Shown in pieces: positions 1,094-18,798 of a stretch of DNA of 48,024 nucleotides. The notes beneath the pieces are model-generated. The model had not been told where the DNA came from and did not search any database. It was given only the letters and a program-made list of their open reading frames with translations. The DNA is from Gloeomargarita sp. SKYG116. GTDB lineage: Bacteria; Cyanobacteriota; Cyanobacteriia; Gloeomargaritales; Gloeomargaritaceae. The stretch spans positions 1-48,024 of the forward strand of contig JANWVM010000010.1 of assembly GCA_025056115.1 (NCBI GenBank), written 5' to 3'. The position numbers and the translations under genes are program-made. The stretch's first letter is position 1, and each line of letters opens with the position of its first letter.

Positions 1094-1390
1094 TTATGTA
1101 GTCACCAATTGGGGGGCGTGGGTGTAGCAGTTTTTAGGACAAATGCGAGCGCAGGCTTGACAACCAATGCACCATTCGGGATGGGCAATGGTCATCACCT
1201 TGCGTTCGCTTTCCTCTTCGTCCTCATCCACAAACTCGAAGTCTTCGTTGACCGCCTGGAGATGCAAGACGTTGCGGCCACAAACTTTGAGACAACGGCC
1301 ACACCCCAAGCAGCGGGTCATGTCAATGGCCTGGACAAAGTAGGGGGTCCAGACGTGGCCGCCTTGGGTTAAACCGGTTAAGTAAGTCAT
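1094..1390 (-). CDS. fdxB: Nif-associated 2[4Fe-4S] ferredoxin FdxB (ferredoxin III)
   Basis: A 98-aa bacterial-type ferredoxin, a candidate electron carrier for nitrogenase or for cofactor synthesis. Residues C27, C30, C33 and C37 form [11 protein letters not shown], and C74, C77, C80 and C84 form [11 protein letters not shown], each able to hold a 4Fe-4S cluster. Between them is a very acidic stretch ([14 protein letters not shown]) typical of the nif ferredoxin III family. The ATG at 1390 is preceded by GAGGAG at good spacing. The frame can be extended upstream to 1558, but that extension is antisense to the mop gene and has no family match. It is the last gene of the long minus-strand nif unit, separated from hesB by 252 bp occupied on the other strand by mop. 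Confidence 0.9.
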
Positions 1391-1436
1391 GATGCATTCT
1401 CCTCTAGAATGGATGGTCGTAACGCGGGATAACGAG

Positions 1437-1646
1437 GTGCAAATCAGTGCGCGGAATGTCCTAAAGGGCAAGGTCAAAAATATTGTCACGGGGATGGTGA
1501 TTGCCGAGGTCACCCTGGAGATTGCGCCTGGGATTGAGGTCACGGCACTGGTCACCAAGGCGTCCTGTGAAAAGCTAGGGCTGACGTTGGGGAAGGAGGC
1601 TTACGCCGTGATCAAGGCGTCGGACGTGCTGGTGGCGGTTGACTAG
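1437..1646 (+). CDS. Mop-family molybdate-binding protein (single TOBE domain)
   Basis: A 69-aa molbindin that stores or buffers molybdate in the cytoplasm. The protein has the single-TOBE pattern [28 protein letters not shown] and [18 protein letters not shown], covering the whole length. A GTG start at 1437 gives the usual size of 68-70 residues; ATG starts at 1389, 1392 and 1413 would add residues with no family counterpart. It is coded on the plus strand, inside the gap of a minus-strand operon, and its stop TAG at 1644-1646 overlaps the stop of hesB on the other strand within one CTAG palindrome. The link to nitrogenase is Mo supply, supported by nearby modA. Its ribosome site is weak, so the exact start is less sure than the identity. 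Confidence 0.85.
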
Positions 1647-1966
1647 CGGCTGGGACAGGACGAGGGGGCAAAGGACTGACCGCAGTGACAACGGTAGGGA
1701 TGTTGGAAGATAAAGCCGCGGTTGAACAGCCCGTCCACGTAGTCCAAGACGACCTCCTCTAGGTAGGGCGCGCTGCGGCGCTCGATGTAGAGCGGCAGGT
1801 CGGGAAAGGGTAGCAACAGGTCGTCAGGCTCCGGCTGACGCACGAGCTTGAGGTCGTAGGTATAGCCCTGGCACCCCCCTGGCACAACCCGCAGGCGATA
1901 GACGCACCCGGGATGGGCGCTGAGCAACGACCGGAGCCGGTCTTGGGCTTGGGGTGTAATGTCCAT
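1643..1966 (-). CDS. hesB: HesB/IscA-type Fe-S cluster assembly protein, nif-linked
   Basis: A 107-aa A-type carrier that is expected to accept or deliver Fe-S clusters during nitrogenase maturation. Three cysteines in the family arrangement are seen: one in VVPGGCQGYTYDL and two in RCHCGQSF near the C-terminus. SD-like AGGAGA precedes the ATG at 1966. The gene follows hesA by 10 bp. Its stop codon shares the CTAG palindrome at 1643-1646 with the oppositely coded mop gene. The C-terminal tail after CGQSF is serine- and proline-rich and slightly longer than in housekeeping IscA. The A-type fold is clear; the specific client is inferred from the operon. Confidence 0.85.
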   Translation of the reverse strand: MDITPQAQDRLRSLLSAHPGCVYRLRVVPGGCQGYTYDLKLVRQPEPDDLLLPFPDLPLYIERRSAPYLEEVVLDYVDGLFNRGFIFQHPYRCHCGQSFAPSSCPSR

Positions 1967-1976
1967 GGCAGGTCTC

Positions 1977-2729
1977 CTAACGCTGAAACAGTGGACTGCA
2001 AACCGGACAGGCCGGCTCGCGGTACAGACGGTATTTGCGAAAGGTGAGGGTGTTCAGATGCATGACCAGCAATTCTCCGCACAACGCCGGCGCGCAACCG
2101 GTCACGTATTTGATGACCTCTAGGGCAGCCAGGCACGCCAGGGTTCCAGCCACGGCCCCCAGTACGCCAAACCCGTATTTATCCCAAGGGGGAAATTCGG
2201 GAAACAGGCACTGCAAACAAGGGGTTTGTCCTGGCACGAGGGTGGTCAGGTAGGCGGTCATTTCGTCCATTGCCGCCTCCACCATCGGTTTGCCCTGTTC
2301 GACGCAGGTGCGATTGAGCAAGGCCCGCTCCTCGAAGTTGTGGGCACAATCCACCGCCAGGTCGCAACGGGCCACCAGTTCCCGCCGGTTGGCGTCAGTG
2401 AGAGAGTCGGGGACGGCTTCAATCGCCACCTCTGGGTTGAAGGCGTGCAGGGTGTCTTTGGCTTTCCAGACGCGAGGCCGGCCTATCCAGTCCTCGGTCA
2501 TGAGCACCTGGCGGTTCAGGTCGTCCCAGCGTAGGTCCCCGCCCCGCACCAGGATGAGCTGGCCAATGCCGGCGGCGGCCAAATACAGCGCTACCGTACC
2601 ACCCAACCCCCCCACGCCGGTGACCAGGACACGGGTGCGCTTGAGGGCTAACTGCCCCGTTTCCCCAAAGTGAGGAAGTTGCATTTGCCGGCGATACCGC
2701 TCGCGTTCTTGGGCAGACAGTTCAACCAT
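1977..2729 (-). CDS. hesA: HesA, ThiF/MoeB-family E1-like enzyme
   Basis: A 250-aa member of the E1-like ATP-dependent adenylyltransferase family found in cyanobacterial nif clusters. The N-terminal [16 protein letters not shown] and the nucleotide-binding [17 protein letters not shown] (about residues 37-53) are typical. Two cysteine pairs, CLQC and CPVC, at about residues 172-175 and 241-244, form the usual structural zinc site. The start overlaps the end of nifW by 8 bp, implying translational coupling. HesA is thought to help sulfur or molybdenum handling for the cofactor; the precise reaction is not established, and nothing here settles it. Confidence 0.88.
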
Positions 2730-3045
2730 GGGTGGGTGCCTCGACCAGGTCGGATAGCAGCACCACGTGGGGAGCGGGTTGCTGGAATACCTTGAACAGC
2801 TTTTGCTCCTGGGCTGAAGAAGTAAGAAAGGTCTGGTAGGCGGTCTCCAGCGCTGTGCGGTAACGCAGAAGCCGCTCCTGCAGGTCGGTCATTTGCTGGT
2901 CAATGGTCTCTTTGAGCAGGCCAAACTTGCGCAGGATGTGCAGGCGGTAGACGTTGACCACCCGCGGGTCATAGGGCAGCCCAAAGAAGTGGAAGTAATC
3001 TTCGGCGTCAGTCAGCCGTTGGAATTGCTCCCAAGTGCCGGTCAT
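2722..3045 (-). CDS. nifW: NifW, nitrogenase stabilizing/protective protein
   Basis: A 107-aa protein of the NifW family, which associates with the MoFe protein and helps protect or mature it, particularly under oxygen. The family pattern is visible as [20 protein letters not shown], then [13 protein letters not shown]. Length matches the family. A strong ribosome site GGAGG precedes the ATG at 3045, inside the end of the DUF269 gene only 2 bp upstream. It overlaps hesA by 8 bp at its 3' end. The order DUF269-nifW-hesA-hesB is common in cyanobacteria. Confidence 0.92.
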
Positions 3046-3047
3046 AG

Positions 3048-3503
3048 CTACACCTCCGTAACAGCAGGAAAGCGGTCAATGAGCGCCAGGGCATTTTGCA
3101 CGTCCTTTTCACCTGCTTGGGCCATCTGCTCCAGGGACGCAAACCCAAAGCGCTGGGCATCCCGCAGAGGACGGGCCACCAGCAACAGTCGCCCGCTGAA
3201 AATCAAGGCCCAGCCAAAGCCCTCGTCGTGGAGGGAAATCACCACCTGCGTGAGCTTACCCCGCTGCTGCTCAATGAGACGGGCAATGGCGCTGTAAAAG
3301 CGGGTGATGCGCTCGCGGGTGGCGGGGTCCACCGGCTGGTCTAGGGAAATCTGGCGCTTCTGTTCTTTGGTGAGCACGTAGGGTTGCAGGAAACGCTCGT
3401 CGCTCCAGGAAGCGTAAATGCCGTAGGGGTCCTGGGCGCGGTATTGGGCCACAAGAGTTTGTAAAAAAGGAGATGCCACGATGGGGCTGGTGGTGGTGCT
3501 CAT
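3048..3503 (-). CDS. NifX-associated nitrogen fixation protein (DUF269)
   Basis: A 151-aa DUF269 protein, almost always coded beside nifX in diazotrophs; its biochemical role is not settled. The central [20 protein letters not shown], followed by [17 protein letters not shown], is the family core. SD GGAGGA lies 8 nt before the ATG at 3503. It starts 4 bp after the nifX stop and ends 2 bp before nifW, so it is almost certainly cotranscribed with both. There are no cysteines in the chain, which argues against direct Fe-S cluster ligation through cysteine. Confidence 0.9.
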
Positions 3504-3507
3504 GGGT

Positions 3508-3903
3508 CTAGTCCTCCGTAAAAGCGGGTTTGGTGCCGAGGGCTTTGCGTAACCAGGGGGGTGGGTTGCCCTGCAGGGTGCGCACCAGGTGGTCCAGGGT
3601 GGCCGAGATGGGGTCGGCTTCTGAGCGGGATTTCACTGGCATCACCCCCTGGTTGACCAGGCGGGCGGCAGCACTCCCCCCAATCGCGGCGACGTACACA
3701 ATCTTGCAGTCAGGGTGGGTTTTGAGAAATTCCAGCTTCGGCACCAGCTTGTCCTCGTTGCCGTCTTCGGTGCCGGTAGGAAAGGTGTGGTGCTCCACCA
3801 GGCGATAGCCCTCGGGCGTGACTTCGTACACCGACAGGAGCCTGGCCCAGCCAAAGTGGGCGTTGATGTGTTCCCCGTCGGTGGTGGCAAAGGCAACTTT
3901 CAT
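3508..3903 (-). CDS. nifX: NifX, FeMo-cofactor precursor carrier
   Basis: A 131-aa NifX protein that shuttles NifB-co or a FeMo-co precursor between NifB and NifEN. It begins MKVAFATTDGEHINAHFGWA, the start typical of the NifX/NifB-C-terminal fold, and includes YVAAIGGSAAARLVNQGVMPVK. Length equals the family norm. GGAGG precedes the ATG. The gene lies 19 bp after nifN, in the usual nifEN-nifX order. The C-terminal tail after residue 110 is Pro/Lys-rich and poorly conserved in the family. Confidence 0.93.
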   Translation of the reverse strand: MKVAFATTDGEHINAHFGWARLLSVYEVTPEGYRLVEHHTFPTGTEDGNEDKLVPKLEFLKTHPDCKIVYVAAIGGSAAARLVNQGVMPVKSRSEADPISATLDHLVRTLQGNPPPWLRKALGTKPAFTED

Positions 3904-3922
3904 GACAACACCTCCATAAGGT

Positions 3923-5200
3923 CTAGGGGTGATGGGGAGTTTCCAAGAGCAAATTGCTCAAGTCAAATAGCAACTGGGCGGTGCCCCGGTAACCCACGTA
4001 GGAACGCAGGTGATAGCCCAACCGGTCCCAAATCGGCAGACCCATGCGCAACAGGGGCAGGCCCAACGCCTGAGCAATCGGCGCTGCACGGCAATTGCTG
4101 ATGAGTACATCGGCGCCAGGGGCGTGCTGTTGCAGGTCGCTCAGGTCGCCAACAATGACCGTTTCGCAGGGCAGGTTCGCTAACCAGTCCGCCCGCGTGG
4201 GGGAGACCGCCGCCTGGATTTCCATCCCCATGCTCGCCAAAAAGTGGCCCATGACAAAAAGCTGGTTGGGTTCCAAAGCCAGAGCTACCCGTTTGCCGCC
4301 CAGGTAAAAGTGGGTATCGAGCATGGCATCCAGCAGTTGTCGTCGCTGCTGGCGGTACAGGGCAGGCACGCTCTGGCCACTCCAGGCCATCAGGCAGCGC
4401 ACCAGGTCATCGCTGGCGGCCAGCCCGGTCACCCCCGGCACCAAGGTATAGGGCACCTGGAAGCGCTCGCGCCATTGCTCGGCAGCCCGGCGCAGGGATT
4501 GGCCAATCACCAGCACGTGAGCAGAGCGTCCGGCTGCGCGCAGTTCCGCCAGGGACGTGCCCCCGGTGGTGACGCTGTGGTAGCCATTGGCCCAGTGCCC
4601 ATCCAAGGATGTGGAAAGGTCGGGGATGACGATGGGGGTTAAACCAAAGGCTTGGATCAGGGCCTTCACGTCGGCGACCTCCCCTGGGGTCAGGTCGGGA
4701 CCCGCCAGCACCGTCACCTGGTCGGCCAGCAGCGGCCCTGGTTGGGGGAGTTCCCGGATGATGGCCTCCACCGCTTGGCTGTACCCGTCGCTCAGGGAAC
4801 CGCCAAAGTCCGGCGCGCAGGCGTAAATAACGGGAATGGGCAAATGCAGTTGCCGCAAAATGCCGGCAATGTCTTCCCCACGGGTTTCGGCGAGAGCGGT
4901 CGAGCATAGGCCAATGAGTTGGGGTTGGGCTTTGGCAAGCAGGGTTTCCAGGCTCTGGCGGATGTTGTCCTCGCCCCCCAGGATGGTGCTGACTTCGGTG
5001 AGCGCCGTCGTGGCCAGCGGAATCGCCTCCCGGAAATGGCGCACCAGCATCACCTTGGCAAAGGCGGTACACCCTTGGGAACCGTGCAGCAGGGGCAGTG
5101 CGCCTTTGATGCCCAGGAAAGCCAGGGCGGCCCCCAGCGGCGGGCTGAGTTTCAAGGGATTGATCGCAACGGCGCGTTCAGGTACTTGTATCCGAGCCAT
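3923..5200 (-). CDS. nifN: Nitrogenase cofactor scaffold, beta subunit NifN
   Basis: NifN pairs with NifE to form the scaffold on which NifB-co is matured into FeMo-co. From the ATG at 5200 the protein has 425 residues. [14 protein letters not shown] (C44) and the [12 protein letters not shown] segment are the NifN counterparts of the NifK P-cluster region. The frame could start upstream at 5266, but ATG 5200 has a strong GGAGGAGG site 9 nt upstream and gives the conserved N-terminus [10 protein letters not shown]. The start lies inside the end of nifE (23 bp overlap), so the two are translationally coupled. Confidence 0.94.
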
Positions 5201-6572
5201 AGCGCAGGTCCTCCTCCCAGGGAGCCGGTTGCCGCAAGTGGGTCCACACGGGGCTGTACAGGGCATGGGTCAACTCCCGCGCCAGGGTCACCAGGCCCCG
5301 GTAGCCGGCGTAACCGTGGTGGCGTTCCTGGTTGATGTCCAGAAAGGGAATCCCAGCTTTGAGTGCGGTGTATTGGTTGCGACCGCCGGCAATCAACAGG
5401 TCAGCGCGGGTGCGGCGAATCACCTCCAGCAGTTCCTGGGCGCCGCCGCCTTCGATGAGCACGCCCTCATCCCCCAACAGTTGCTGGATGCGGGCTTTGT
5501 CCTCAGCCGTGCTCTTGCGAGTGCTGCTGGCGACCACGCGCATACCCAAATCCTGGGCCGCCGCAATCACCGACCAGCTTTTGACGCCGCCGGTGTAGAG
5601 TACCACCCGCTTGCCTTGGAGCTTGGCGCGGTAGGGGGCAAGGTCCTGCTCCAGACGCTGGGTTTCGTCGGCAATCAGGGCCTCCACCCGTGCGCTCAGG
5701 TCGGGGTCCTGGAAATGCTGGGCTACTTGCCGCAGGCAGCGGTTCATCTCTCCCAGGCCGTAAAACGAGCCCTCGATGTAGGGAATGCCGTAGCGCTCCT
5801 GCATCTTGCGCGCCACGTTCAGCAGGGCCTTGGCGCAGATCACCAGGTTCAAGTGGGCGCGGTGGGCGTAGGTGATTTCCCGGTAGCGGGCATCGCCGGT
5901 GATTTTCGCCAGCACCTGAATCCCCAACCGCTCAAACAGGGGCAAGACGTCCCACAGTTCCCCGGCAATGTTGTACTCGCCGATGAGATTGATGGCGAAG
6001 CGGCCCACCGCTGGCGGTTCCCCCGTGCCGATGACGTACTCCAGCAGGGCTTCCCCAGCCAGACGATTGCCCAGGTTTTTCCCCCCCACAAACCCCGGCG
6101 CCATGACGGGAATCACCGGCAACCCCACCTTTTCCCGGGCCGCCTGGCACACCGCCACCACATCTTCCCCCGTCAGGGCCGGCACGCAGGTGCAATAGAC
6201 AAAGATGGCGGCGGGCCGGTAGCGCTCAGCAATCTCCTGGATGGCCCGGTAGAGCCGCTTTTCGCCCCCAAAAATAATGTCCTGCTCGGTCAGGTCGGTG
6301 GTGAAACCCGTCCGAAACAGCAGGGGGCCGGACGACCCACTCCCGCGCGTACCCCAGGAATTGCCGGCACAGGCGATGGGGCCATGCACCAGGTGGGCGG
6401 CGTCGGTAATCGGCACTAGGGTAATACTGGCCCCGTCAAAGGCGCATCCACCCTGGGCCGCCCCCGGTTTGGCCTGTTGCCGACAGCTCCGGTTTTTCTG
6501 GTCCCCGTGCTGGTGGTGGTTGTGGGGGCAAGCCGGTTCCGTCAAAAGCTGGTTGATCTGGGTCCGAAACAT
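5178..6572 (-). CDS. nifE: Nitrogenase cofactor scaffold, alpha subunit NifE
   Basis: NifE is the alpha-type subunit of the NifEN scaffold. The 464-aa chain shows EPACPHNHH and [20 protein letters not shown], then [12 protein letters not shown] (C68) and VYCTC (C127/C129), equivalents of NifD cluster ligands. A later cysteine in [10 protein letters not shown] matches the cysteine near the precursor-binding site in this family. Length is normal. It starts 7 bp after the nifK stop with only a weak ribosome site, suggesting coupling to nifK translation, and overlaps nifN by 23 bp. Confidence 0.95.
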
Positions 6573-6579
6573 GGGGTCT

Positions 6580-8109
6580 TCAGCGGATCAGGTCAAAGGA
6601 GAAGTCGGTCTTGGCGGGAAGAATGGTTTGCCGGTCGAGTTCGTCCAGCACCGTATTCACCAGCCAGTTGAGCAGGTTAATTGCCCCTTGGTAGCCCAAG
6701 GTGGGATAGCGGTGCAGGTGATGCCGGTCGAAAATGGGGTAACCAATGCGCACCAGGGGCGTTTTCGTATCCCGCCACAGGTATTTGCCGTAGGAGTTGC
6801 CAATCAGCAGGTCCACGGGTTCGGTAAACAGCAGCGAGCGCAGGTGCCACAGGTCCTTGCCACCCCAGACCGTTGCTTCCCCACCGTTGGGATAGCGGGC
6901 CAACAGCTCCTTGGCTTCCTGCTCAAAGGCTTCGTTGCTGTTGGTCACCACGATGTGTACGGGTTCCATCCCCATCTCCAGGGTGAACGCCAGCAGGGAC
7001 AACACCAGGTCAGGGTCGCCGTAGATGGCAAAGCGTTTGCCGTGCAACCAGGCCTGGGAATCCGTCATGGCATCCACCGCCCGGCCCCGCTCGACCTCTA
7101 ACTCGGGGGGAATGGGTTTGCCGGTGAGCTTGGAAAGCTTCATCAAAAAGGCATCCGTCCCCTGAATCCCAAACGGGCGCAGCACACAGGTGGGCTGTTG
7201 CCAGACCGTCTGGATAAAATCCCGCGTCTTTTCCGTGGAATAGGCCTGCAACGCGACGGTGGCCTCCGCGTTGATCGCCTGGGCAGTCTCCTGCAGCGTG
7301 GTCCGCCCGTGGTACAGCACGTAGTGGCCGGTGTTGGGTGAATCGAAGGTGTCGGAATTGTCCGCCAGGATGGTGTGGGGGATGTCCATCAGGGTGAGCA
7401 TCCGCCGCAGCTCCCGGATATTGGCGATGTAGGGGTCAAAGCCAGGAATGAAGTTCAATTTGCCCGTGCTGTCCCCTTTCTTGCCCTCCAGGGTCTGCAG
7501 GATGGCCTTGAGCATGTTGTCGTAGCCGTCAATGTGGGAGCCGACAAAGCTGGGCGTATGGGCGTAGGGCACCGGCACGTCAGCCGGAAGCGCCCCCTCG
7601 TTTTTAGCGGTGGTGATGAAAGCCCCCAGGTCGTCCCCAATTACCTCCGCCATGCAGGTGGTGCAGACGGCGATCATCTTGGGTTTGTAGAGCGCATAGG
7701 CGTTCATCAGCCCCTCAATCATGTTCTGGAGTCCCCCAAACACCGCTGCATCTTCCGTCATGGAAGTGGACACGGCGGCAAAGGGTTCCTTGTAGTTGCG
7801 GGTCAGGTGGGTGCGGAAGTAGGCCACACACCCCTGGGACCCATGCACAAAGGGCAGCGTTTGCTCAAACCCGGCAGCGGCAAAGATGGCCCCTAGCGGC
7901 TGGCAGGCTTTGGCCGGGTTGATGGTGATGGCCTCGCGGGCGAAGTTTTTCTCCCGGTAGTCCCAGGTTTTGGTCCACTCGGCCACCCGCTGCACTTCTT
8001 CAGGGCTGGGGCAGGCCTCAAACTGGCGCTTGCGCTCAAAGAGTTCCTGGTACTCCGGCTGGTGAAAAAGCTGGACGTGGTCCTGAATGGCGTTGACGTT
8101 TTGAGACAT
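6580..8109 (-). CDS. nifK: Nitrogenase MoFe protein beta subunit NifK
   Basis: The beta subunit of dinitrogenase, which with NifD holds the P-cluster. In the 509-aa chain the P-cluster cysteines are in [11 protein letters not shown] (C69), [10 protein letters not shown] (C94) and [11 protein letters not shown] (C152). The N-terminus is of the short cyanobacterial type. The C-terminus ends FSFDLIR. GGGAGGA precedes the ATG at 8109, 12 bp after the nifD stop. No ligand is missing, so an active enzyme is expected. Confidence 0.97.
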
Positions 8110-8121
8110 GGCAGTCCTCCC

Positions 8122-9585
8122 TCAAACGGTGTCGGTGTGGGTTTTCCAGGGCGCTTTGACCAACCCCCAGGTGGGACTGTTCAGGGCCAGGTCCATATCG
8201 CGGGCGAAAACGGCAAAGCCATCGTAGCCGTGGTAGGGGCCGGAGTAGTCCCACGAGTGCATCTGGCGAAACGGCAGGGCCATCTTCTGGAAGACGTATT
8301 TCTCCTTGATGCCCGACGCAATCAGGTCGGGATGCAACCGGCGGGCGAATTCCTCAAATTCATAGGCCGTGACGTCGTCGTAGATGACCGTGCCAGGGTC
8401 GGCGTAGTGGGTGGTGCGCTGGTAGTCGTCGCTGTGGCCAAATTCATAGCCAGTGCCGATGACCTCCATCCCCAGATCCCGGAAGGCGGGGATCACGTGA
8501 CGCGGGCGCAGGCCCCCCACCATGATCATCACCCGCTTGCCCTCCAGCCGCGGGCGGTACTTGGCAATCACTGCATCGGCCTGGGGTTGGTACTTGGCGA
8601 TGACTGCTTCCGCCTTCTCCTGGATGGTGGCGTCGAAGTAGGACGCAATCTTGCGCAGGGAGTTGGCAATTTCCGTCGGCCCGAAGAAGTTGTACTCCAC
8701 CCAGGGGATGCCGTACTTCTCCTCCATGTGCCGGCACAGGTAATTCATGGAGCGGTAGCAGTGGATCAGGTTCAGCTTGACCCGGGGCGCTAACTTCATC
8801 TCCTGGAGCGTGCAGTCGCCGGAGAACTGGCACACCACCCGCAGGCCGATTTCCTCCAGCAGGATGCGGGACGCCCAGGCATCACCCCCGATGTTGTAGT
8901 CGCCGATGATGGCGATGTCGTAGGGCGACGGCGTGTAACCCAGCTCGTCGTTGCTGAGTTTGTCGTAGGCGGGGAAGACCCAGTCGCGGATGGTGTCGTT
9001 GGCGATGTGGTGGCCGAGAGACTGGGAAACGCCCCGGAAACCTTCGCACCGCACCGGCACCACCAGCTTGCCCAGGTCTTTGGTCTTGTGCCGCGCCACG
9101 GCTTCAATGTCATCCCCAATCAAGCCAATCGGGCATTCGGACTCGATGGTGATGCCCTTGGTCAAGGGGAACAGGGTGGCCAGTTCGTCCAGGGCTTTGG
9201 CCAGTTTCTTGTCCCCCCCAAACACGATGTCCCGTTCCTGGAAGTCGGTGGTGAACTGCATGGTGACGAAGGTGTCTACCCCAGTGGTGCCCACGTAGTA
9301 GTTGCGGCGACCGGACCAGGAGTAGTACCCACAGCCCACCGGGCCGTGGCTGATGTGGATGACGTCCTTCACCGGTCCCCAGACCACCCCTTTGGAACCG
9401 GCATAGGCGCAGCCGCGCGTGGTCATGACGCCGGGAATGGATTTGATATTGGACTTGACCCCGCAGTCGGATTTGCCCTCCTCGAGAACGTTCAAGTGCT
9501 TTTGGCGTTTTTTGCGGGTCTTTTCCGGGTAGGCCGCCAGCACGTCCTGAATGACTTGTTTTCGCTCTTGATAAACGCTGGTCAT
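8122..9585 (-). CDS. nifD: Nitrogenase MoFe protein alpha subunit NifD
   Basis: The alpha subunit of dinitrogenase, carrying FeMo-co. With the ATG at 9585 (GGAGG 8-9 nt upstream) it has 487 residues; an upstream in-frame ATG at 9624 would add 13 residues with no family match. P-cluster cysteines C59, C85 and C151 lie in [17 protein letters not shown] and [11 protein letters not shown]. FeMo-co ligands are C276 ([10 protein letters not shown]) and H443 ([10 protein letters not shown]). The reading frame is uninterrupted, so there is no nifD excision element as found in heterocystous species. The nitrogenase is of the Mo type, not V or Fe-only. Confidence 0.97.
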
Positions 9586-9619
9586 GGTTGGGTCCTCCAC
9601 GATGGATGGATGTGGGCTG

Positions 9620-9659
9620 GGCATCCAACCCCCGCCAGTGCTGGAAAGGGCCGGATGCC
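9620..9659 (-). promoter_or_regulatory. Hairpin in the nifH-nifD spacer
   Basis: GGCATCC (9620-9626) and GGATGCC (9653-9659) form a perfect 7-bp stem, with an inner CCAG/CTGG stem (9635-9638 and 9641-9644). It occupies most of the 81-bp nifH-nifD spacer. There is no T tract, so it is more likely a processing or 3'-stabilising structure for nifH mRNA than a full terminator. Structures at this position are known in other diazotrophs; its role here is inferred. Confidence 0.5.
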
Positions 9660-9666
9660 GGGGGAG

Positions 9667-10590
<924 letters not shown>

Positions 10591-10603
10591 TTAATCGCTC
10601 CCC

Positions 10604-10645
10604 CCGGGTCAACGGTGGTTGCGATGGGGGCGACCGTTCACCCGG
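10604..10645 (-). promoter_or_regulatory. Strong hairpin in the nifU-nifH spacer
   Basis: CCGGGT-C-AACGGT (10604-10616) faces ACCGTT-C-ACCCGG (10633-10645): twelve pairs in two 6-bp blocks around one C-C mismatch (G-G in the minus-strand RNA), with a 16-nt loop. No T run follows. Placed 56 bp before the nifH start, it could be a processing or stabilising structure that raises nifH transcript levels relative to nifBSU. Confidence 0.55.
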
Positions 10646-10677
10646 CACGACACCTCGGCACATGACCATCTCCTGCG

Positions 10678-11508
10678 TTACGACACGGCTTCCACCACCA
10701 GCGTCGGCCAGACCTCCTGGCGCAACCGCGCTTCGATGACCTCCTTCAAGGTGGTCCAACGACTGCTGCAATCGCCGCAAGCACCGGTCAGTTGCACCCA
10801 GACCTGGTCGCCCTCGACTTCGACCAACTCCACATCGCCACCGTCTTGCTGGAAATAGGGGCGCAGTGTGCTCAGGACGGCCTGGATGCGGTTGATTTTT
10901 TGCACAGTGGTCAAGCGCGGGGGCATGACGGTCTGGGCCAAAAGGTCGGCAATGACGTCGCGGCACATCCCGCAGCCACCTCCTGCTTTGATGTAATGGG
11001 TGACCGCTTCCACGGTGGTCAGGCGATTGTCCCGGATCACCTTACGAATGCGTTCCTCGCTCACCCCAAAGCAGGTACACACCAGGGGACTGTCGTTCTC
11101 GTGATGCACCGGCACCGCCACGCCCCGGTACTTGTAAATGGCCTGCTCCAAGGCTTCCTGGCCCATCACGGAGCAGTGCATTTTCTGCGGGGGCAACCCG
11201 CCCAGGTAATCGGCAATGTCCTGATTGGTAATGGCCAGGGCCTCCTCCAGAGTGCGTCCCTTGACCATTTCCGTCAGCGCTGACGACGACGCGATGGCGC
11301 TGGTGCAACCGAAGGTTTGGAACCTGGCTTCCACAATCCGCTCGCTGGCCCGTTCGATTTTTAGGTGCAGGCGCAGGGCGTCGCCGCAGGCCAGGCTCCC
11401 GACTTCACCGGTGACCACGGCAAAGGCTGGGTCGCCCGTGTCCTCGATCACTCCCTGGTTACGGGGGTGATAGAAGTGCTCCAAAACCTTGTCGCTGTAG
11501 TCCCACAT
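10678..11508 (-). CDS. nifU: NifU, Fe-S cluster scaffold for nitrogenase
   Basis: A modular scaffold on which NifS-derived sulfur and iron are assembled for nitrogenase. The 276-aa chain has three parts: an IscU-like N-terminal domain with cysteines in SLACGDAL, TFGCTSAIAS and KMHCSVMG; a central [2Fe-2S] domain with VCTCFGVS and GGGCGMCRD; and a C-terminal Nfu domain with GACGDCSS. The ATG at 11508 has GGAGG 6 nt upstream, located in the nifS stop region; a TTG at 11514 is a less likely start. It is 10 bp from nifS, forming the usual nifSU pair. Confidence 0.95.
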   Translation of the reverse strand: MWDYSDKVLEHFYHPRNQGVIEDTGDPAFAVVTGEVGSLACGDALRLHLKIERASERIVEARFQTFGCTSAIASSSALTEMVKGRTLEEALAITNQDIADYLGGLPPQKMHCSVMGQEALEQAIYKYRGVAVPVHHENDSPLVCTCFGVSEERIRKVIRDNRLTTVEAVTHYIKAGGGCGMCRDVIADLLAQTVMPPRLTTVQKINRIQAVLSTLRPYFQQDGGDVELVEVEGDQVWVQLTGACGDCSSRWTTLKEVIEARLRQEVWPTLVVEAVS

Positions 11509-11518
11509 GACCAACCTC

Positions 11519-12724
11519 CTAACCCGCCGCCATCAGCGCGTGGGTGCGTTGTTCCAGCCAGTCGCTCTCGTCATCCGTAAAGGGCGATAGAGACCGCAGT
11601 TGGGCCACAATCCCCGGCAGCACCGCCAGCAACCGTTCCACCTCCGCCGCTGTGGTATAGCGCGACAGGCTAAAGCGAATCGAGCCGTGCAGGACGCTGT
11701 AGGGCACGCCCATCGCCTTCAACACGTGGGACGGTTCCAGGGAATCCGACGTGCAAGCCGACCCCGACGACGCGCAAATGCCTTCCCGGTCCAGCAGCAG
11801 CAGGATGGCTTCCCCTTCGATGTACTTGAACCCAATGTTGCTGGTGTTGGGTAAACGGGGACTCCCCTGGCCGTTGACCACCACGTCAGGGATAGTCGCC
11901 AGGATGGCTTGCTCCAACCGGTTCCGCAGCGCCTGCACCTGCATGGTCATTGCCGTCAGGTGGTGCTTGGCTAAAACCGCCGCCTGACCCAGCCCCACGA
12001 TGCCCGCCACGTTTTCCGTGCCGCCGCGCCGGTTGCGTTCCTGGTGACCGCCGATGAGCCAGGGCCGAAAGGGAACCCCCCGGCGCACAAACAGGGCACC
12101 AACCCCCTTGGGCGCGTGGAACTTGTGCCCCGACAGCGTCAGGAAATCAATCGGGCTGTTCTGTAGATGGATAGGGACTTTGCCCACCGCTTGCACCGCA
12201 TCCACGTGGAACAACGCCCCGTAGGACTTCACCAGGTCGCCAACGGCGTCAATGGGAAACAGCACCCCGGTTTCGTTGTTGGCGTACATCACCGACACCA
12301 GCGCCGTATCCCCAGTCAGGGCCGCCTCCAGCTCCAGCAGGTCCAATTGCCCTCGCCGGTCCACCGACAGGTAGGTGACACGATAGCCCTCCTTCTCCAA
12401 GCGCTTGCACAGGTTCAGCACGCAGGCGTGTTCAACCTGAGTCGTGATAATGTGCCGCCGGTCGGGAAAGCTGGCCAGCGCTGAGCGGATGGCTGTGTTA
12501 TTGCCCTCGGTGCCGCCGCTGGTGAAAATCACTTCGGTCGGCGTCGCCCCGATTAGGTCCGCCACCTGCTCCCGCGCCGTTTTGAGCGCCCTGGCCACCT
12601 GGCCGCCGAAGCTGTGCATGCTGGACGGGTTGCCGTAGTAGGTAGTCAGGTAGGGCAGCATGGCCTCCAGGACTTCTGGGGCAACCGCCGTTGTGGCGTT
12701 GTTATCCAGGTAGATGACATTCAT
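11519..12724 (-). CDS. nifS: NifS, cysteine desulfurase
   Basis: A PLP enzyme that releases sulfur from cysteine as a protein persulfide for NifU and NifB. In the 401-aa chain the PLP lysine is K201 in SGHKFHAPKG, and the catalytic cysteine is C324 in SSGSACTS. The N-terminus [20 protein letters not shown] is typical of the NifS group. Its ATG overlaps the fdxN stop in an ATGA, with GGAGG upstream. The stop lies 10 bp before nifU. Confidence 0.96.
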   Translation of the reverse strand: MNVIYLDNNATTAVAPEVLEAMLPYLTTYYGNPSSMHSFGGQVARALKTAREQVADLIGATPTEVIFTSGGTEGNNTAIRSALASFPDRRHIITTQVEHACVLNLCKRLEKEGYRVTYLSVDRRGQLDLLELEAALTGDTALVSVMYANNETGVLFPIDAVGDLVKSYGALFHVDAVQAVGKVPIHLQNSPIDFLTLSGHKFHAPKGVGALFVRRGVPFRPWLIGGHQERNRRGGTENVAGIVGLGQAAVLAKHHLTAMTMQVQALRNRLEQAILATIPDVVVNGQGSPRLPNTSNIGFKYIEGEAILLLLDREGICASSGSACTSDSLEPSHVLKAMGVPYSVLHGSIRFSLSRYTTAAEVERLLAVLPGIVAQLRSLSPFTDDESDWLEQRTHALMAAG

Positions 12725-12999
12725 CGGCGACCTCCGACGAGTTGACGTTCCTGCAACTGGGCCAGCCGTTGCTGGTATTCGCTAAACCACTGGCGCCAGT
12801 AGCTGTTGATGTCTTCGAGCTGGTAGGGGCAATTGTTTTCAAAAATGCCGCCGCAGCGGTATTCCCCTTGGCCCTGGCAGCGGTCGCACAGGCGCTGGTC
12901 CCACCAGTAGTGGTGGTTGGCTTGTTTGATCGCCCCTTTGGGACAGCGGGCCTGGCATTCCGTCCAGCTCATATATTCATTCGGCGTTTTGTAGGGCAT
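12721..12999 (-). CDS. fdxN: FdxN-like nif ferredoxin with an incomplete first cluster motif
   Basis: A 92-aa protein in the position of fdxN, whose product delivers electrons to NifB. It has six cysteines: C15 and C19 in [12 protein letters not shown], and C38, C41, C49 and C57 in [12 protein letters not shown] and NNCP. The first motif should read CxxCxxCxxxCP, but the first two cysteines are Y9 and W12 here, so a normal first 4Fe-4S cluster cannot form from this motif alone. The second motif has the widely spaced FdxN form and looks intact. The start at 12999 has GGAGG upstream; it overlaps nifB by 23 bp and nifS by 4 bp. The long aromatic and Gln-rich C-terminal helix is also unlike minimal ferredoxins. 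Confidence 0.8.
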
Positions 13000-14404
13000 A
13001 ACCCACCTCCTTGTGCTGAGCCAGCCAGCGGTCATAGAACTTGCGGGCCACCACCTCAATCAGGTCGTAGTCCTCCACCGGTTCGATGCCCGCTTGGCGT
13101 AGTTTTTCTTGGGGACAGGGGCCGATTTTGGCGCATAGCACCGCTTGACAATCGCCGATGGCCTGCAAGATGTGGGTCATGGTGGCTTCTTCCCCGTAGC
13201 CGCCTTGGCAGTACTGGGCCACCTTGCGATGACCAACAAACCGCGCCCCTTGCCCGTCCACCTCGTAAACCATGAATTCCTTGGCATGGCCGAAATGTTG
13301 ATTCACCAAGCCACCGCCTTTACTGGCGACCGCCACTAGGATGGCCGGTGTGGGTTGGGTTGTCTGCGGGCGCAGTTGCGCTTTCTTCTGGGCCATGACT
13401 TGGCGTTCTAGTTCAATGCGGGTTTGGTGCAGACGGCGTTTTTCTGGGTCGTATTCAACCGGCATGGTCATGAACTTCTGCTTGGTGAATTCCTGGGAAC
13501 GGTCTTCGCCCAATAGCCCAATGGCATCCGCCCGGCACTGGCGACAATGGCGCATGACCTTCATCCCGACGGCGCATTTATCCTGCAACGCCTTCAGCTC
13601 TTGGGGCGTGGGTCCCCGCTGACCCGTCAGGCCAAAGTACGTGCCGTGTTCTGGCGCCGAAATCAGGGGCATGATGTTGTGCAAAAAGGCCCCCTTTTCC
13701 CGGATGACTCGGTTGACCTCCAGCAGGTGCTCATCGTTAATTCCCGGAATCATGACCGAATTCACTTTGCAGAGAATATCGGCCTCCTGAAGCGCCTGCA
13801 GCCCCTCCATTTGCCGCTCCAGCAAAATCTTGACCGCTTCCTTGCCGTAAATGCGTTTACGTTGCCAGCGAATCCAGGGGTAAATCCGCACGGCAATGTC
13901 GGGGTCAATGGCGTTGATGGTAATCGTGACGTGGTCAATGTTCAGGGCTTTAATCCGGTCCACATAGTCCGGCAAATTCAAGCCGTTGGTCGAAAGACAC
14001 AGCTTGATATCGGGCACGTGTTCCGCCAGCAATTCAAACGTGCGAAAGGTCTGCTTGGGATTGGCCAGCGGGTCCCCCGGCCCGGCAATGCCCACCACCG
14101 TCAACTGGGGAATTTTGCCGGCAATCACCAGCACTTTGCGCAGGGCCTCCTCCGGCGTCAGGACTTCGCTGACCACCCCAGGGCGGCTTTCGTTGGCGCA
14201 GTCGTACTTGCGGTTGCAGTAATTGCACTGGATGTTGCAGGCGGGCGCGACGGCCACGTGCATGCGGGCGTAGTGGTGATGCGCCTCCTCGCTGTAGCAA
14301 GGGTGTTTCGCAATGCGCGCCTGTAAACGGGCATCACGTTGGGCTAGGGCATCGGCGACTGCTGGCTGGGTGCAGTGGCAATTTCGGCTGGGCGCAGTAG
14401 TCAT
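12977..14404 (-). CDS. nifB: NifB, radical SAM FeMo-cofactor biosynthesis protein
   Basis: NifB fuses two 4Fe-4S units and inserts the central carbon to make NifB-co. The 475-aa chain has the radical SAM motif CNIQCNYC (C56, C60, C63), [12 protein letters not shown], and a C-terminal NifX-like domain from about residue 350 ([20 protein letters not shown]). This two-domain form is usual in cyanobacteria. It is the first gene of the minus-strand unit, with a weak AGG ribosome site, preceded by about 600 bp of control region. It overlaps fdxN by 23 bp. Confidence 0.96.
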
Positions 14405-15007
14405 GACAAGATGCCTGAGCTATTGGATGCCATGGTTATAGCACCCGCCTATTGCTGCGCCTGGGAGTCCCTAAAAATCCCTAATTAATCTATTCACGAT
14501 GTACTCAATTCCCTCAGTTGCCTTCCCAACGAAGCATCCACTTTTTGGCAGCTAGGGGAACGAGTATTTCTCACCCACCAAAAACCCATTTCTTATTCGG
14601 TTATCTTGAATAAATGCACTCGCTTAAACTTACCCCATTTTCCCTTCCGTATCAATAATAACATAAGACCTCTGAATTGTTACATGGAATACTAAAATAA
14701 TGCTTAAATTCCCCTGCCGCCTGGGAGCGAAGCCAGACAATAAAGCTAGGGGAAAAGAATCTGAGTACAGTAAGTCCCAAGCGGTCTTAGAAAAACGCCA
14801 ATTTTTATCGAGAAAAATTCTCGTACCCCCAGTTGTGGCAGCAGTGGGCCTCTCCTGTTTATGCCAGTTGATTCCGTGAGCAGCGAGCTAAGCGATCTGG
14901 TCGGAGGGCTTGAGTGCAATCTAATCAACAGATAAGAAATGGCCATCGGTCAGTTTAGCCGTTTGGACTGGCTTGGTATAGTGAAGCCAACAACCGAGAG
15001 ACTAACC
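14405..15007. other. Divergent control region between nifB and the nifV-side operon
   Basis: About 600 bp, AT-richer than the genes, with no convincing coding sequence. It holds two near-consensus NtcA sites (14649-14662 and 14679-14692), a TATAGT box at 14977-14982 that could serve the rightward genes, and a small hairpin CGAGAA-AAA-TTCTCG at 14809-14823. Both nif transcription units probably start here. Confidence 0.6.
14649..14692 (-). promoter_or_regulatory. Pair of imperfect NtcA-type sites before nifB
   Basis: On the minus strand GTA-N8-AAC (14692-14679) is followed by GTT-N8-TAC (14662-14649), each one base off GTA-N8-TAC. Their centres are 30 bp apart, about three helical turns. A TATTAT box lies 18 bp after the first and overlaps the second. 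This suggests one activating site plus a -10 region, but both matches are imperfect and the spacing is slightly short. Confidence 0.3.
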
Positions 15008-15259
15008 ATGATGGATACTGTCTTCATAGACCACATTGATTTTCTACCAGTTGGTGAGCGCTGGACCATCCGGGCGCGCCTACAAGAATTAGGCGTCAAC
15101 TGTGAATGTCTCGAAGGCGGTTCACTCGCTGTGGAAATCACAAATTCCTGGGTCGCCATTTTAGTATCAATGGTGCTTTTCCGGTTCGTGACATCGCGTC
15201 GGCAACAAGTGGAGTGGTTGGAACGATGTTGGCAGGTTTTAACTGCACCAGGAGGGTAA
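15008..15259 (+). CDS. Small conserved-looking protein, first gene of the nifV-side operon
   Basis: An 83-aa protein of unknown function. It resembles short cyanobacterial proteins with the pattern RWxxxxRLQEL...C.C followed by a hydrophobic segment and WLERCWQ; here these are ERWTIRARLQELGVNCEC and QQVEWLERCWQVL. There is no signal peptide and no clear domain. The hydrophobic stretch WVAILVSMVLFRFV is more likely buried than a true membrane span, but this cannot be decided. The ATG at 15008 has GAGAG 7 nt upstream; ATG 15011 is an alternative. Its 3' end carries the strong ribosome site of the next tiny gene, so it is cotranscribed toward nifV. Confidence 0.65.
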   Translation: MMDTVFIDHIDFLPVGERWTIRARLQELGVNCECLEGGSLAVEITNSWVAILVSMVLFRFVTSRRQQVEWLERCWQVLTAPGG

Positions 15260-15263
15260 GACC

Positions 15264-15368
15264 ATGACAACCTTCGCTCTGACTTTGATGAGTTTTTTGG
15301 GTTTTGTGGTGTTCTTAGGCCTGTATACCGCCGCCGTTTGGTGGTTTATCCAACACCTGTTTCGCTAG
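15264..15368 (+). CDS. 34-aa single-span membrane peptide upstream of nifV
   Basis: A tiny gene: ATG at 15264, stop TAG at 15366-15368, encoding 34 residues. It starts MTTFALTLMSFLGFVVFLGL and ends in aromatic and basic residues (WWFIQHLFR), a single hydrophobic span with a positive end, so the C-terminus is probably cytoplasmic-side. A strong GGAGGG ribosome site lies 7 nt before the ATG, overlapping the end of the upstream gene (4-bp gap). It ends 14 bp before the preferred nifV start. I do not recognise a family. The excellent ribosome site and placement argue that it is translated. Confidence 0.6.
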   Translation: MTTFALTLMSFLGFVVFLGLYTAAVWWFIQHLFR

Positions 15369-15382
15369 TTGTTGTCCAGGCT

Positions 15383-16576
15383 ATGCAGGAAACGATTTGG
15401 GTCACTGACACAACGCTGCGGGATGGTGAACAAGCAGCCGGTGTCGCGTTTACAGCCGCCGAAAAACTGGCCATTGCTCGTTTGCTCGACCAAATCGGCA
15501 TACCGGAACTGGAAGTCGGTATTCCCATCATGGGGGGTGAAGAAGCCAAAGCCATTCAACAGCTGGTTCAGGCCGGTCTGCAAGCCCACTTGATCAGTTG
15601 GAACCGGTGTCGCCTTGCCGATTTAGAAGCCTCCATCGCCTGTGGTTTACGACGAGTCCATATTTCTGTACCAGTGTCCGATGTACAAATCGCTGTCAAA
15701 TTCCAGGGCGACCGTTGGGCTATGCTCAAGCAACTGCGAGCCTGTATCGAATTTGCTAAATCCCAAGGGTTGTTTGTGGCGGTGGGAGGAGAGGATAGTT
15801 CGCGGGCAGACCCAGACTTTCTCCAAGACGTTGCCCTCTATGCCCAGGCGTGGGGCGCCGAGCGATTCCGGTTCTGTGATACGGTCGGTCGTTTAGACCC
15901 GTTTGCTACGTATGAGCAGGTGCGCCATTTAACCGCCGTACTGGACATTCCCGTGGAAATGCACACCCATGATGACCTGGGCATGGCGACTGCGAATGCC
16001 TTAGCAGGTATCCGCGCCGGCGCTCGTTCAGTCAACACAACCGTCAATGGCCTGGGAGAACGCGCTGGTAATGCTGCCCTGGAGGAAGTCGTCCTAGCGC
16101 TCAAGGAAATCTACGGTTACTCCCTCCCCATTGACACCACTCGTTTTTGGGAGCTGTCGCAACTGGTCGCCCAAGCCGCCAATTGTCACCCCCCCTTGTG
16201 CAAGGCAGTTGTGGGCGCCAACACCTTCTCCCACGAATCAGGGATTCACACCCACGGCTTACTAGCGCGGAGCGACACCTATGAACCCTATCCCCCCGAA
16301 ATAGTCGGGCGACAACGGCAGTGGGTGATTGGCAAACATTCGGGTACCCATCTCATCAGACATCTCCTGCAACAGGCCGGTATCCACGTCAGCGCCCAGC
16401 AGGCCCAAGCCATTTTAGCCATCGTGCGCCAGCGAGCTACCCAGCGCAAAGGTGGTCTTTCCCTGGAAGAACTGATTGTTATTAGCCGCACTGTACAGGA
16501 GGTATCCCCATGTCCCGACAGTCCAATGAACTCGACGCTCCCCCTCGGTTTGAACTCGGTCAAAAAGTCCGGCTGA
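15383..16576 (+). CDS. nifV: NifV, homocitrate synthase
   Basis: Makes homocitrate, the organic ligand of FeMo-co, from acetyl-CoA and 2-oxoglutarate. The 397-aa chain starts MQETIWVTDTTLRDGEQAAG, the DRE-TIM signature with catalytic and metal-binding residues, and has the metal-binding HTHDDLGMATAN and NTTVNGLGERAGN. A longer frame from 15338 overlaps the tiny upstream gene and adds unrelated residues. The last 67 bp overlap nifZ in another frame. The C-terminal tail after about residue 370 is encoded in that overlap and is not conserved in the family. Confidence 0.94.
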   Translation: MQETIWVTDTTLRDGEQAAGVAFTAAEKLAIARLLDQIGIPELEVGIPIMGGEEAKAIQQLVQAGLQAHLISWNRCRLADLEASIACGLRRVHISVPVSDVQIAVKFQGDRWAMLKQLRACIEFAKSQGLFVAVGGEDSSRADPDFLQDVALYAQAWGAERFRFCDTVGRLDPFATYEQVRHLTAVLDIPVEMHTHDDLGMATANALAGIRAGARSVNTTVNGLGERAGNAALEEVVLALKEIYGYSLPIDTTRFWELSQLVAQAANCHPPLCKAVVGANTFSHESGIHTHGLLARSDTYEPYPPEIVGRQRQWVIGKHSGTHLIRHLLQQAGIHVSAQQAQAILAIVRQRATQRKGGLSLEELIVISRTVQEVSPCPDSPMNSTLPLGLNSVKKSG

Positions 16577-16809
16577 CCCAAACTGTTCGTAACGATGGCA
16601 CCTTCATTGGCCGGGGCACCTACGATGTTCTAGCCCGCAAAGGAGACATCGGCTACATCGTGGCCATCGGCACGTTTCTGCAAGCCTTTTACATCTACAG
16701 TGTGCATTTTTTAGAACGCGGCATCGTGGTGGGTTGTCGCGCCCACGAACTAGAAGCACTAGAAGACGAACATCTAGTTAAATTAGATACCGAATCTACA
16801 TATTGCTAA
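16510..16809 (+). CDS. nifZ: NifZ, MoFe protein P-cluster maturation factor
   Basis: A 99-aa NifZ-family protein, which assists formation of the second P-cluster of NifDK. The family segment RNDGTFIGRGTYDVLARKGD followed by GYIVAIGTFLQ and YSVHFLERGIVVGCRAHELE is clear. GGAGG precedes the ATG at 16510. It begins inside nifV, with 67 bp overlap in a different frame, a long overlap even for coupled genes. No nifT follows. Confidence 0.9.
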   Translation: MSRQSNELDAPPRFELGQKVRLTQTVRNDGTFIGRGTYDVLARKGDIGYIVAIGTFLQAFYIYSVHFLERGIVVGCRAHELEALEDEHLVKLDTESTYC

Positions 16810-17112
16810 TCCATTTGCCATTCCTTGGGTTGCCGGCTCAGACCCATCCTGGATTTTCTGGTGATCTCCCAGACAAACGGTAGCCAGGTTATCTACGGTT
16901 GTTATCTCCTGGGTCGCAGGGCGTAGCCCCGTTCTGGGTTTGCTGATTGTCTCCAGCACAAACTCAACTGGTCTAGCTATAAAGTGGCTTGACTAGCAAA
17001 CCTAAAAATATGCTAAATGTGCTGCAAAAAGTACAAAAAACATCGGGAAGAAACCCTAAGGTTGGAGTGAGTCGAAAAACCTTCTCAGTTGCTTGCTGTC
17101 AGGAGGCGGGCG
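16810..17112. other. Intergenic region after nifZ with decayed repeat
   Basis: No gene is seen in these 303 bp. Two segments, 16851-16878 and 16936-16963, align at 20 of 28 positions with a period of 85 bp, suggesting an old duplication. A small GGGC-GTA-GCCC hairpin is at 16919-16929. The right end carries the ribosome site of the next gene; its promoter should be here. Confidence 0.35.
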
Positions 17113-18645
17113 ATGGCGGATGCAGATTGCACAAATTGCCCGATCCAGGTGTTTAAGGAGCAGTCCATAGGCCATCAGACAGGGGCAGAAAAAATCACCC
17201 TGGCGCCGCTGGATCCCCGGTGTCAGCAGGTCACAAATTGTCTGAGCGACGTGTTTATCGTACCGCCTGGCAAACCTGTGACCACTGATTATCCCCAGGC
17301 GAACGTCACCCTTTTTGAAAACGGCAAACAACAGGCTTTTGCATCTTGTTTGGTCATCTGGCAAGCCTGTCATCTGATGACCCAGCGACCCTACCACCGG
17401 TGGCAACCCGTCAACGGTTTCATCACGTATGAATATCACAGCCAAGCGGGGCGATTAATTTATCGGTTGCCGCATCGCTACTGGGAACAGGATGACGTAG
17501 ACATTCGAGTAATCTTAATTCATTTACTCTTTGCTGCCTGCGCCACCCAAAAAGTCCAGCCTTGGGCAGACCCAGTGGTGATTCATGACCGCATCATCGC
17601 CGAATTTCTGGGGCTGCATCAGCGCAAGGATATAAACCGTCTCAAAAAACTATTACTTATCGAGTCATTAGTCCGTCAGGCCTGCACGCTGGAGGTAGAA
17701 ATTTTTTGGCAAAAACGAGGTCAGATTCCCCCCGTCCATCTGTCCTTTGCGCCCTTGTGGTCAGCTAAGCCTCTCTATCACATTGCTAAGGCCAAAGATG
17801 GTTCGCCCTATCTCAGTGGGTTGTCCTTTCAAGTGGTAGCCGGTCCTTGGTCCACCTACTTTTTGAACCGTCAGCAAGCCCGTCAAACATCTGCCTATTA
17901 CCAGTATGGATGGCTGCCAATTTCCTTTGCGCCCCAGATCATGCATCTGTGGCAACGCCACCCTGGTTGTGTCGTGATGTTGCTCTATCTCTTATTCCGC
18001 CGGCGGGTGAGCCAAGAATGCAGCACCAAAGTCGGGACATTGCTCAAACTGATTTACGGTGAAGACTATCTCCAGCGGGCGTGGCATCAATCAGAAGTAC
18101 GACGCAGGGTTATGGCTACGTTTGAATCCGACCTTGAGCAACTTTTTCAGTATGGCTTTCGACCCCTGTTTGCCGACGATACCTACCCGCCATCCATTCA
18201 ACCTTGGTGGTTTACAACGCGGGACATTCCTGACGACCCTGATGCAGCGCTTGACTATTGGGCCGAAAAAGCCCGCGCCACTCCCCTAACGAATAATTCC
18301 CGTAAAAAGTGGTCGCAACTACTCAACGCTTGGGTGAGTCTGACAGAATTTCCTGAAGATTGGCGAACTGAAAACGCACAAGGAATTGCCCGTTCCAAAC
18401 CCCGTGTTTCTGCCCAGGCAACCTCAGCAATTACAGGAGCGATGATCAAACAAGCTCGTCTGCAACGAGGTATGAGCCAGCGACAACTTTCCGCCTTACT
18501 CCACAAAAGTCAAAGTTGGATTCGCGATATTGAATCGGGGAGGTATAAAATCAAACCCAAAGATATTGCTTTACTGGCGTCTGTGCTTGGGGATTTCACC
18601 AGCGCTCTCGGAAACAGGGTGAATCATTCCCAGCCAGACTTATAG
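17113..18645 (+). CDS. Large protein of unknown function with C-terminal XRE-type helix-turn-helix
   Basis: A 510-aa protein. The last 70 residues contain a clear XRE/Cro-type helix-turn-helix at about 445-493 (IKQARLQRGMSQRQLSALLH, then SWIRDIESGRY). The N-terminal 430 residues match no family I recognise. Near the start four cysteines, C6, C9, C37 and C43, could bind metal or an Fe-S cluster, but this is inference. The ATG at 17113 has AGGAGG upstream; an ATG at 17089 is less likely. It lies alone between the nif cluster and tRNA-Phe, with its stop 3 bp from the tRNA 3' end, and looks less GC-rich than the nif genes. It is not the ferredoxin-HTH regulator CnfR. It may be a nif-linked regulator or an island gene such as a replication or control protein. 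Confidence 0.7.
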   Translation: MADADCTNCPIQVFKEQSIGHQTGAEKITLAPLDPRCQQVTNCLSDVFIVPPGKPVTTDYPQANVTLFENGKQQAFASCLVIWQACHLMTQRPYHRWQPVNGFITYEYHSQAGRLIYRLPHRYWEQDDVDIRVILIHLLFAACATQKVQPWADPVVIHDRIIAEFLGLHQRKDINRLKKLLLIESLVRQACTLEVEIFWQKRGQIPPVHLSFAPLWSAKPLYHIAKAKDGSPYLSGLSFQVVAGPWSTYFLNRQQARQTSAYYQYGWLPISFAPQIMHLWQRHPGCVVMLLYLLFRRRVSQECSTKVGTLLKLIYGEDYLQRAWHQSEVRRRVMATFESDLEQLFQYGFRPLFADDTYPPSIQPWWFTTRDIPDDPDAALDYWAEKARATPLTNNSRKKWSQLLNAWVSLTEFPEDWRTENAQGIARSKPRVSAQATSAITGAMIKQARLQRGMSQRQLSALLHKSQSWIRDIESGRYKIKPKDIALLASVLGDFTSALGNRVNHSQPDL

Positions 18646-18648
18646 CAA

Positions 18649-18721
18649 TGCCAGGAGCCAGACTTGAACTGGCGACACGGGGATTTTCAGTCCCCTGCTC
18701 TACCGACTGAGCTATCCCGGC
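18649..18721 (-). tRNA. tRNA-Phe (anticodon GAA)
   Basis: A 73-nt cloverleaf on the minus strand. The acceptor stem GCCGGGA pairs with TCCTGGC (one G-U), the D-arm has AGCTCAGTCGGTAGAGC, the anticodon loop is CTGAAAA with anticodon GAA, and the T-loop is TTCAAGT. CCA is not encoded. Its 3' end faces the XRE gene and the nif cluster, the usual orientation for integration beside a tRNA. Confidence 0.95.
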
Positions 18722-18798
18722 AGGCAATAAACCATTATAACCTACCCAAAGCGAGGCAACTCCATTATCATGCAAGGTGTAGTTGTTTCCCACCACCC

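Follow-up and report, generated by a model that had tools for sequence, protein, structure and literature searches.

A Gloeomargarita ortholog of CnfR that has lost the canonical 2[4Fe-4S] ferredoxin domain and most likely still activates the nif genes

CnfR is the protein that switches on nitrogen-fixation genes, and at low oxygen levels it activates transcription of nifB. The published CnfR/PatB architecture joins a 2[4Fe-4S] ferredoxin domain to an XRE domain, and all CnfRs are stated to have the ferredoxin domain; in L. boryana, deletion of the Fe-S region abolishes nifB expression, and three conserved cis-elements upstream of nifB are probable CnfR sites (PMC8510180). In the same species coxB2A2C2 adjoins cnfR (PMC5943405), the cnfR gene of Thermoleptolyngbya is 1599 bp long (PMC8307165), and a published nif co-occurrence module includes all2512/patB together with asr1405 (PMC5862535). 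The locus analyzed here lies in a 48,024-nucleotide stretch of the Gloeomargarita sp. SKYG116 genome (the window), in which the original prediction had described a 510-aa ORF with a C-terminal XRE domain. Both are indeed present, as the start ATG is preceded by a ribosome-binding site (AGGAGG at 17101-17106) and a Pfam search of the 510-aa protein matched HTH_3 at residues 445-493 (E=5e-11). The gene and its neighbors are as follows:

17113..18645, + strand: cnfR ortholog, putative CnfR-lineage activator without the canonical 2[4Fe-4S] domain (510 aa; ORF, ribosome-binding site, homology, tree, nif co-occurrence)
17113..17292, + strand: residues 1-60, eroded ferredoxin domain (alignments; no Fer4 match; pLDDT 42-64)
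17335..18348, + strand: residues ~75-412, core domains with predicted fold similar to RctB domains 2-3 (Foldseek E=1.5e-4)
18436..18591, + strand: residues 442-493, XRE helix-turn-helix (HTH_3; alignment)
16510..16809, + strand: nifZ, directly upstream of cnfR
15338..16576, + strand: nifV, homocitrate synthase (annotated in the original prediction; synteny with the annotated nifV-nifZ of locus L048)
14939..15259, + strand: orf106, Asr1405/Asl0597 family gene, divergent from nifB (NF045598 E=1.9e-20)
12977..14404, - strand: nifB, which heads the probable target operon (orthologs placed in congeners)
12721..13029, - strand: ferredoxin in the fdxN position, first two cluster-I cysteines lost (alignment; no Pfam match)

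The cnfR gene lies downstream of nifV and nifZ on the same strand, and its position after these two genes is kept in 6/6 congeners. The probable target operon on the other strand has the order nifB-fdxN-nifS-nifU-nifH-nifD-nifK-nifE-nifN-nifX..., with the downstream genes named by NCBIfam, and the window nifH, D, K, E, N, X, and U all exceed the NCBIfam cut-offs. A tRNA-Phe gene (18648-18722, - strand) abuts cnfR, but the short flanks of five genus orthologs contain no tRNA, indicating that this adjacency is incidental, and a tRNA-island reading of the locus was rejected on the same grounds.

Residues 1-430 had been reported to match nothing. While no family in Pfam, PHROG, or NCBIfam matched this region, residues ~60-493 align to cyanobacterial CnfR/PatB with 34-43% identity, which overturns that claim. 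Homologs outside the genus are 527-550 aa long and combine an N-terminal CxxCxxCxxxCP...CxxC...CxxxC domain with a C-terminal XRE domain, and at the profile level the family resembles bacterial 2[4Fe-4S] ferredoxins (E 1e-13). A homolog length of 532 aa agrees with the Thermoleptolyngbya cnfR gene, and in one Nostoc the homolog is close to COX2 and COX1 genes. In a tree of 47 proteins with plasmid XRE paralogs as the outgroup, the genus forms one clade (support 100/100) that is nested among Fe-S-bearing CnfRs (95/80), although its long stem (2.5) makes its exact neighbors less sure. The window protein and CnfR also have in common the recognition helix KSQSWIRD, which reads SQGLISLIEN in the aligned plasmid proteins, as well as a ~23-residue segment around DIPDDPDAALDYW. 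The gene is present in a single copy, with no paralog in its own genome, of which the assembly lacks 1-2%. Judged from these comparisons, the 510-aa protein is a CnfR/PatB ortholog by descent and the only one in its genome.

The original prediction had called for a check on whether homologs co-occur with nif in other cyanobacteria, and the co-occurrence proved almost perfect. Among 386 cyanobacterial genomes, which are not phylogenetically independent, strong homologs (E<=1e-40) and nifD were both found in 73, the protein alone in 0, nifD alone in 1 (G238), and neither in 312, such that strong homologs occur in 73/74 nifD+ genomes versus 0/312 of the others. A scan of 39 relatives likewise recovered orthologs in five nif+ congeners and none in the nif-less congener G005; one relative has the protein without nifD (G033) and another nifD without the protein (G010), both being fragmented assemblies. 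Two further arrangements were observed. The 125-kb Pseudanabaena ABRG5-3 plasmid ABRG53d (L048) carries nifD, nifK, nifV, nifZ, and nifT together with an intact cnfR that is annotated just as an HTH protein, while genome G014 has two Fe-S-domain cnfR copies close together (L076:2866-8078), resembling CnfR1/CnfR2 in number, but adjacent to one another.

The N-terminal domain is where the genus diverges. Both four-cysteine motifs are present in 119/121 loci outside the genus, the two exceptions being a plasmid paralog (L018) and a divergent f22 protein (L017), whereas alignments reveal both motifs to be broken in 6/6 nif+ congeners. Pfam detects Fer4 matches in intact CnfRs and none in the window protein. 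AlphaFold2 models are similarly divided: in the window protein, residues 1-60 have pLDDT values of 42-64, whereas the ferredoxin region modeled for an intact CnfR reaches 63-80, and a fold search with this CnfR yields 2[4Fe-4S] ferredoxins. Only C9, C37, and C43 are invariant in the genus, C9 being the counterpart of the motif-1 CP cysteine in the alignment. C6 occurs in four of six congeners and is missing in G001 and G003, both of which retain a 'CDR' cysteine resembling the one that opens motif 2. The N-terminus carries four or more cysteines in each congener examined, and the fourth one varies between members. The proposal that C6, C9, C37, and C43 form a metal or Fe-S sensor was therefore rejected in its first form: the four cysteines do exist, but C6 is unconserved and the sensor idea is correspondingly weakened. 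By alignment, the window cysteines are instead remnants of the eight-cysteine ferredoxin domain. As the genus clade nests within Fe-S-bearing CnfRs, the loss is secondary, and as it is common to the whole genus, it is also old. Nor is it an artefact of the window assembly, since six genomes have the eroded cnfR, among them genomes assembled into a single contig and into four. Thus, with the Fe-S motifs broken in all six congeners and no Fer4 match, the gene is CnfR by descent and an Fe-S-less variant that lacks the defining feature of a canonical CnfR.

FdxN, whose gene separates nifB from nifS, likewise no longer has the first two cysteines of motif 1, both in the window and in five congeners; the eroded motif reads EYMSWxEC..RCPxGAI, and two nif-linked ferredoxin domains have therefore changed in this lineage. 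Elsewhere, genome G028 encodes a 426-aa CnfR-like protein beside nifV (L017/L074) whose ferredoxin domain is degenerate and which lacks an HTH; it adjoins a divergent nif cluster having no TGAGTAC sites in the region examined. Similar partial matches occur in G098, G232, and G320, and this type of protein is possibly a second, independent loss of the ferredoxin domain.

Candidate targets were located in the interval between nifB and orf106:

14500..14507, - strand: TGAGTACA element, 96 bp upstream of nifB, probable CnfR site
14615..14622, - strand: degenerate element CGAGTGCA, 115 bp from the 14500 element (conserved spacing)
14762..14769, + strand: TGAGTACA element facing orf106/nifV, probable CnfR site

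Only the two exact TGAGTACA elements are left in the window. Across the genus, nifB upstream regions contain 1-5 exact TGAGTACA copies per 640-740 bp versus 0.01-0.03 in shuffled sequence, and the fullest arrays have spacings of 114-115 and 61 bp; species in which CnfR is intact space their elements by 114-117 and 70-73 bp, and a TGAGTACTCA palindrome often stands at the center of the array. We infer that TGAGTACA is the published CnfR cis-element. A literature search for TGAGTAC together with nifB found nothing related, and NtcA-type GTAN8TAC sites were neither enriched nor found near cnfR.

From these results, it seems most likely that this CnfR ortholog still activates nif via TGAGTACA arrays despite having lost the canonical 2[4Fe-4S] domain. 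Against this stand the L. boryana deletion phenotype, the survival of only two exact elements in the window, and the disruption of cnfR and nifE in congener G002. The core and the XRE helix-turn-helix would bind the arrays between nifB and orf106/nifV, and the bound protein would switch on the nifB operon, perhaps along with the nifV-nifZ-cnfR side. Because the two oxygen-labile clusters cannot assemble the way they do in other CnfRs, oxygen control might be gone altogether, with the timing of nif set through cnfR expression (e.g. in dark anoxic mats), or it might operate through a reduced metal site or have shifted to a partner.

The second of these options is possible, if somewhat doubtful. 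CnfR would here keep one reduced metal site, built from C9, C37, C43, and a lineage-specific fourth cysteine, and sense oxygen or redox by a single Fe-S cluster or zinc. The three cysteines are invariant across orthologs of only 56-65% identity, at least four N-terminal cysteines are always available in the congeners examined, and the N-terminus is under some constraint: pN/pS between congeners was 0.35-0.77 for this region, compared with 0.19-0.38 for the core and 0.15-0.35 for the HTH, values that are relative only as dS is saturated. Conversely, the identity of the fourth cysteine is not fixed, the region is modeled with low confidence, and the cysteine spacing now fits neither ferredoxin cluster.

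It is improbable that the gene is a decaying, non-functional relic, with nif silent or under another regulator. The L. boryana deletion phenotype does imply that a CnfR lacking its Fe-S region might be inactive, and the domain loss and long stem branch would suit a relic. Decay is also evident in parts of the genus. In G002, the same ~1.1-kb insertion sequence interrupts both cnfR (L063:3000-4150) and nifE (L062 ~8069-9193), the copies being 99.9% identical and carrying a 355-aa transposase-like ORF, which suggests that nif is probably being lost in that species, while G005 has no nif at all. However, the cnfR reading frame is open in five of six congeners, the core and HTH are under purifying selection, CnfR-type elements are retained with their spacing, the nif genes are intact, and a genus-wide domain loss must be old. 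Regarding the window itself, positions 60-14507 are 98.3% identical in DNA to G001:C15:8849-23296, and this similarity stops at the first TGAGTACA element, beyond which (the nifV-nifZ-cnfR side) identity is 66-71%. The window genome (G000) is a 258-contig assembly whose identity to G001 is mosaic elsewhere too, indicating that related strains have either recombined or been merged into a chimeric assembly.

The two readings put forward in the original prediction fare worse. A nif-linked redox regulator distinct from CnfR was correct as to the nif linkage and would suit residues 1-430 having no named domain in general libraries, but distinctness is very hard to reconcile with the orthology of residues ~60-493 to CnfR, the tree, and a genome with no other CnfR. 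Least credible of all is a plasmid or island replication or maintenance gene, since the distant homologs found on 40 plasmid records beside CyRepA1 or ParAB genes have just 29-32% identity, fall outside the CnfR clade, and carry a different recognition helix, and, RctB-like core notwithstanding, the window gene has no visible rep or par neighbor and its presence tracks nif.

The plasmid proteins may still be informative about where an activator such as this one came from. The nearest non-CnfR homologs are plasmid-borne and located beside CyRepA1, DUF3987, or ParAB genes, and they neither group with CnfR nor carry the SQSWIRD helix. Directly downstream of the plasmid XRE gene, two loci have arrays of TGATTACA, which differs from the CnfR element TGAGTACA by one base: 11 copies in L049:11444-12268 and 8 copies in L051:11330-12040. 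These arrays lie in gaps of 711-825 bp, with 0.04 copies expected in shuffled sequence and none found elsewhere in the 17-21 kb locus. A Gloeocapsa locus (L050:11321-11983) has 0 TGATTACA copies and five TATTACAA copies instead. All three arrays are accompanied by CTAGAACCCC-type repeats and lie upstream of CyRepA1/DUF3987 genes, and these iteron-like arrays are probably replication origins. CyRepX proteins were also considered; they are described as helicase-like in a text that contains no XRE or HTH term (PMC10899382).

The predicted core fold points in a similar direction. Foldseek matched the eroded core to RctB domains 2-3 with E 1.5e-4, and an intact CnfR core with E 1e-4; structural comparison gave Z 9.0 over 239 residues (VIA) for the former and Z 10.0 for the latter, the alignments covering about 239-247 residues with an rmsd of 6.2-6.3. 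RctB is the initiator of Vibrio chromosome II. The core also matched a co-crystal series (9yzm and others) with Z ~8 over 206 residues, which we take to be RepE, as a sister entry (9yza) bears a RepE sequence. The fold evidence is moderate, because the structure-comparison tool warns that chance alone often yields Z of 7-8. Sequence profile comparison of CnfR with RepE detected no similarity, and nothing in a viral structure library matched with E below 0.001. We know of no replication role for CnfR. Taken together, fold, plasmid context, and repeats make it plausible that a replication protein that binds iterons was co-opted. It is slightly less than an even bet that CnfR arose from an iteron-binding plasmid replication protein to which a ferredoxin domain was added, and that the present lineage lost this sensor again, leaving an activator without the canonical Fe-S oxygen switch. 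Among the matches listed in literature searches, no paper was relevant to CnfR in combination with either Gloeomargarita or iterons.

If the link to plasmid initiators is true, it would account for both the source of CnfR and its array-type promoter. The genus departs from a literature in which the ferredoxin domain is universal in CnfRs and required for nifB activation, and what this domain does can be directly tested in a lineage that has nif, the regulator, and probable sites but not the Fe-S domain itself. Such a CnfR could also provide an activator working in air, useful for nif transfer to other organisms.

Compared with described systems, RctB and RepE-type plasmid initiators may share the predicted core fold of CnfR, at only ~10% identity and with no profile match in the case of RepE. 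The plasmid XRE proteins, such as those of Synechococcus PCC 7502 pSYN7502.01 and Leptolyngbya NIES-3755 plasmid3, are closer in having a homologous core and XRE domain without a ferredoxin domain, yet they lack the ~23-residue CnfR segment and are linked to plasmid replication rather than to nif. Relative to the arrays of intact-CnfR species, those of the genus lack the central palindrome and have their third element at 61 bp rather than at 70-73 bp. The closest counterparts are CnfR/PatB themselves (all2512 of Nostoc PCC 7120, L. boryana CnfR, and A. variabilis CnfR1/CnfR2); from these the window protein differs by its long branch and the genus-wide loss of both four-cysteine Fe-S motifs, while it resembles them in its core, recognition helix, co-occurrence with nif, single copy, and TGAGTACA arrays upstream of nifB.
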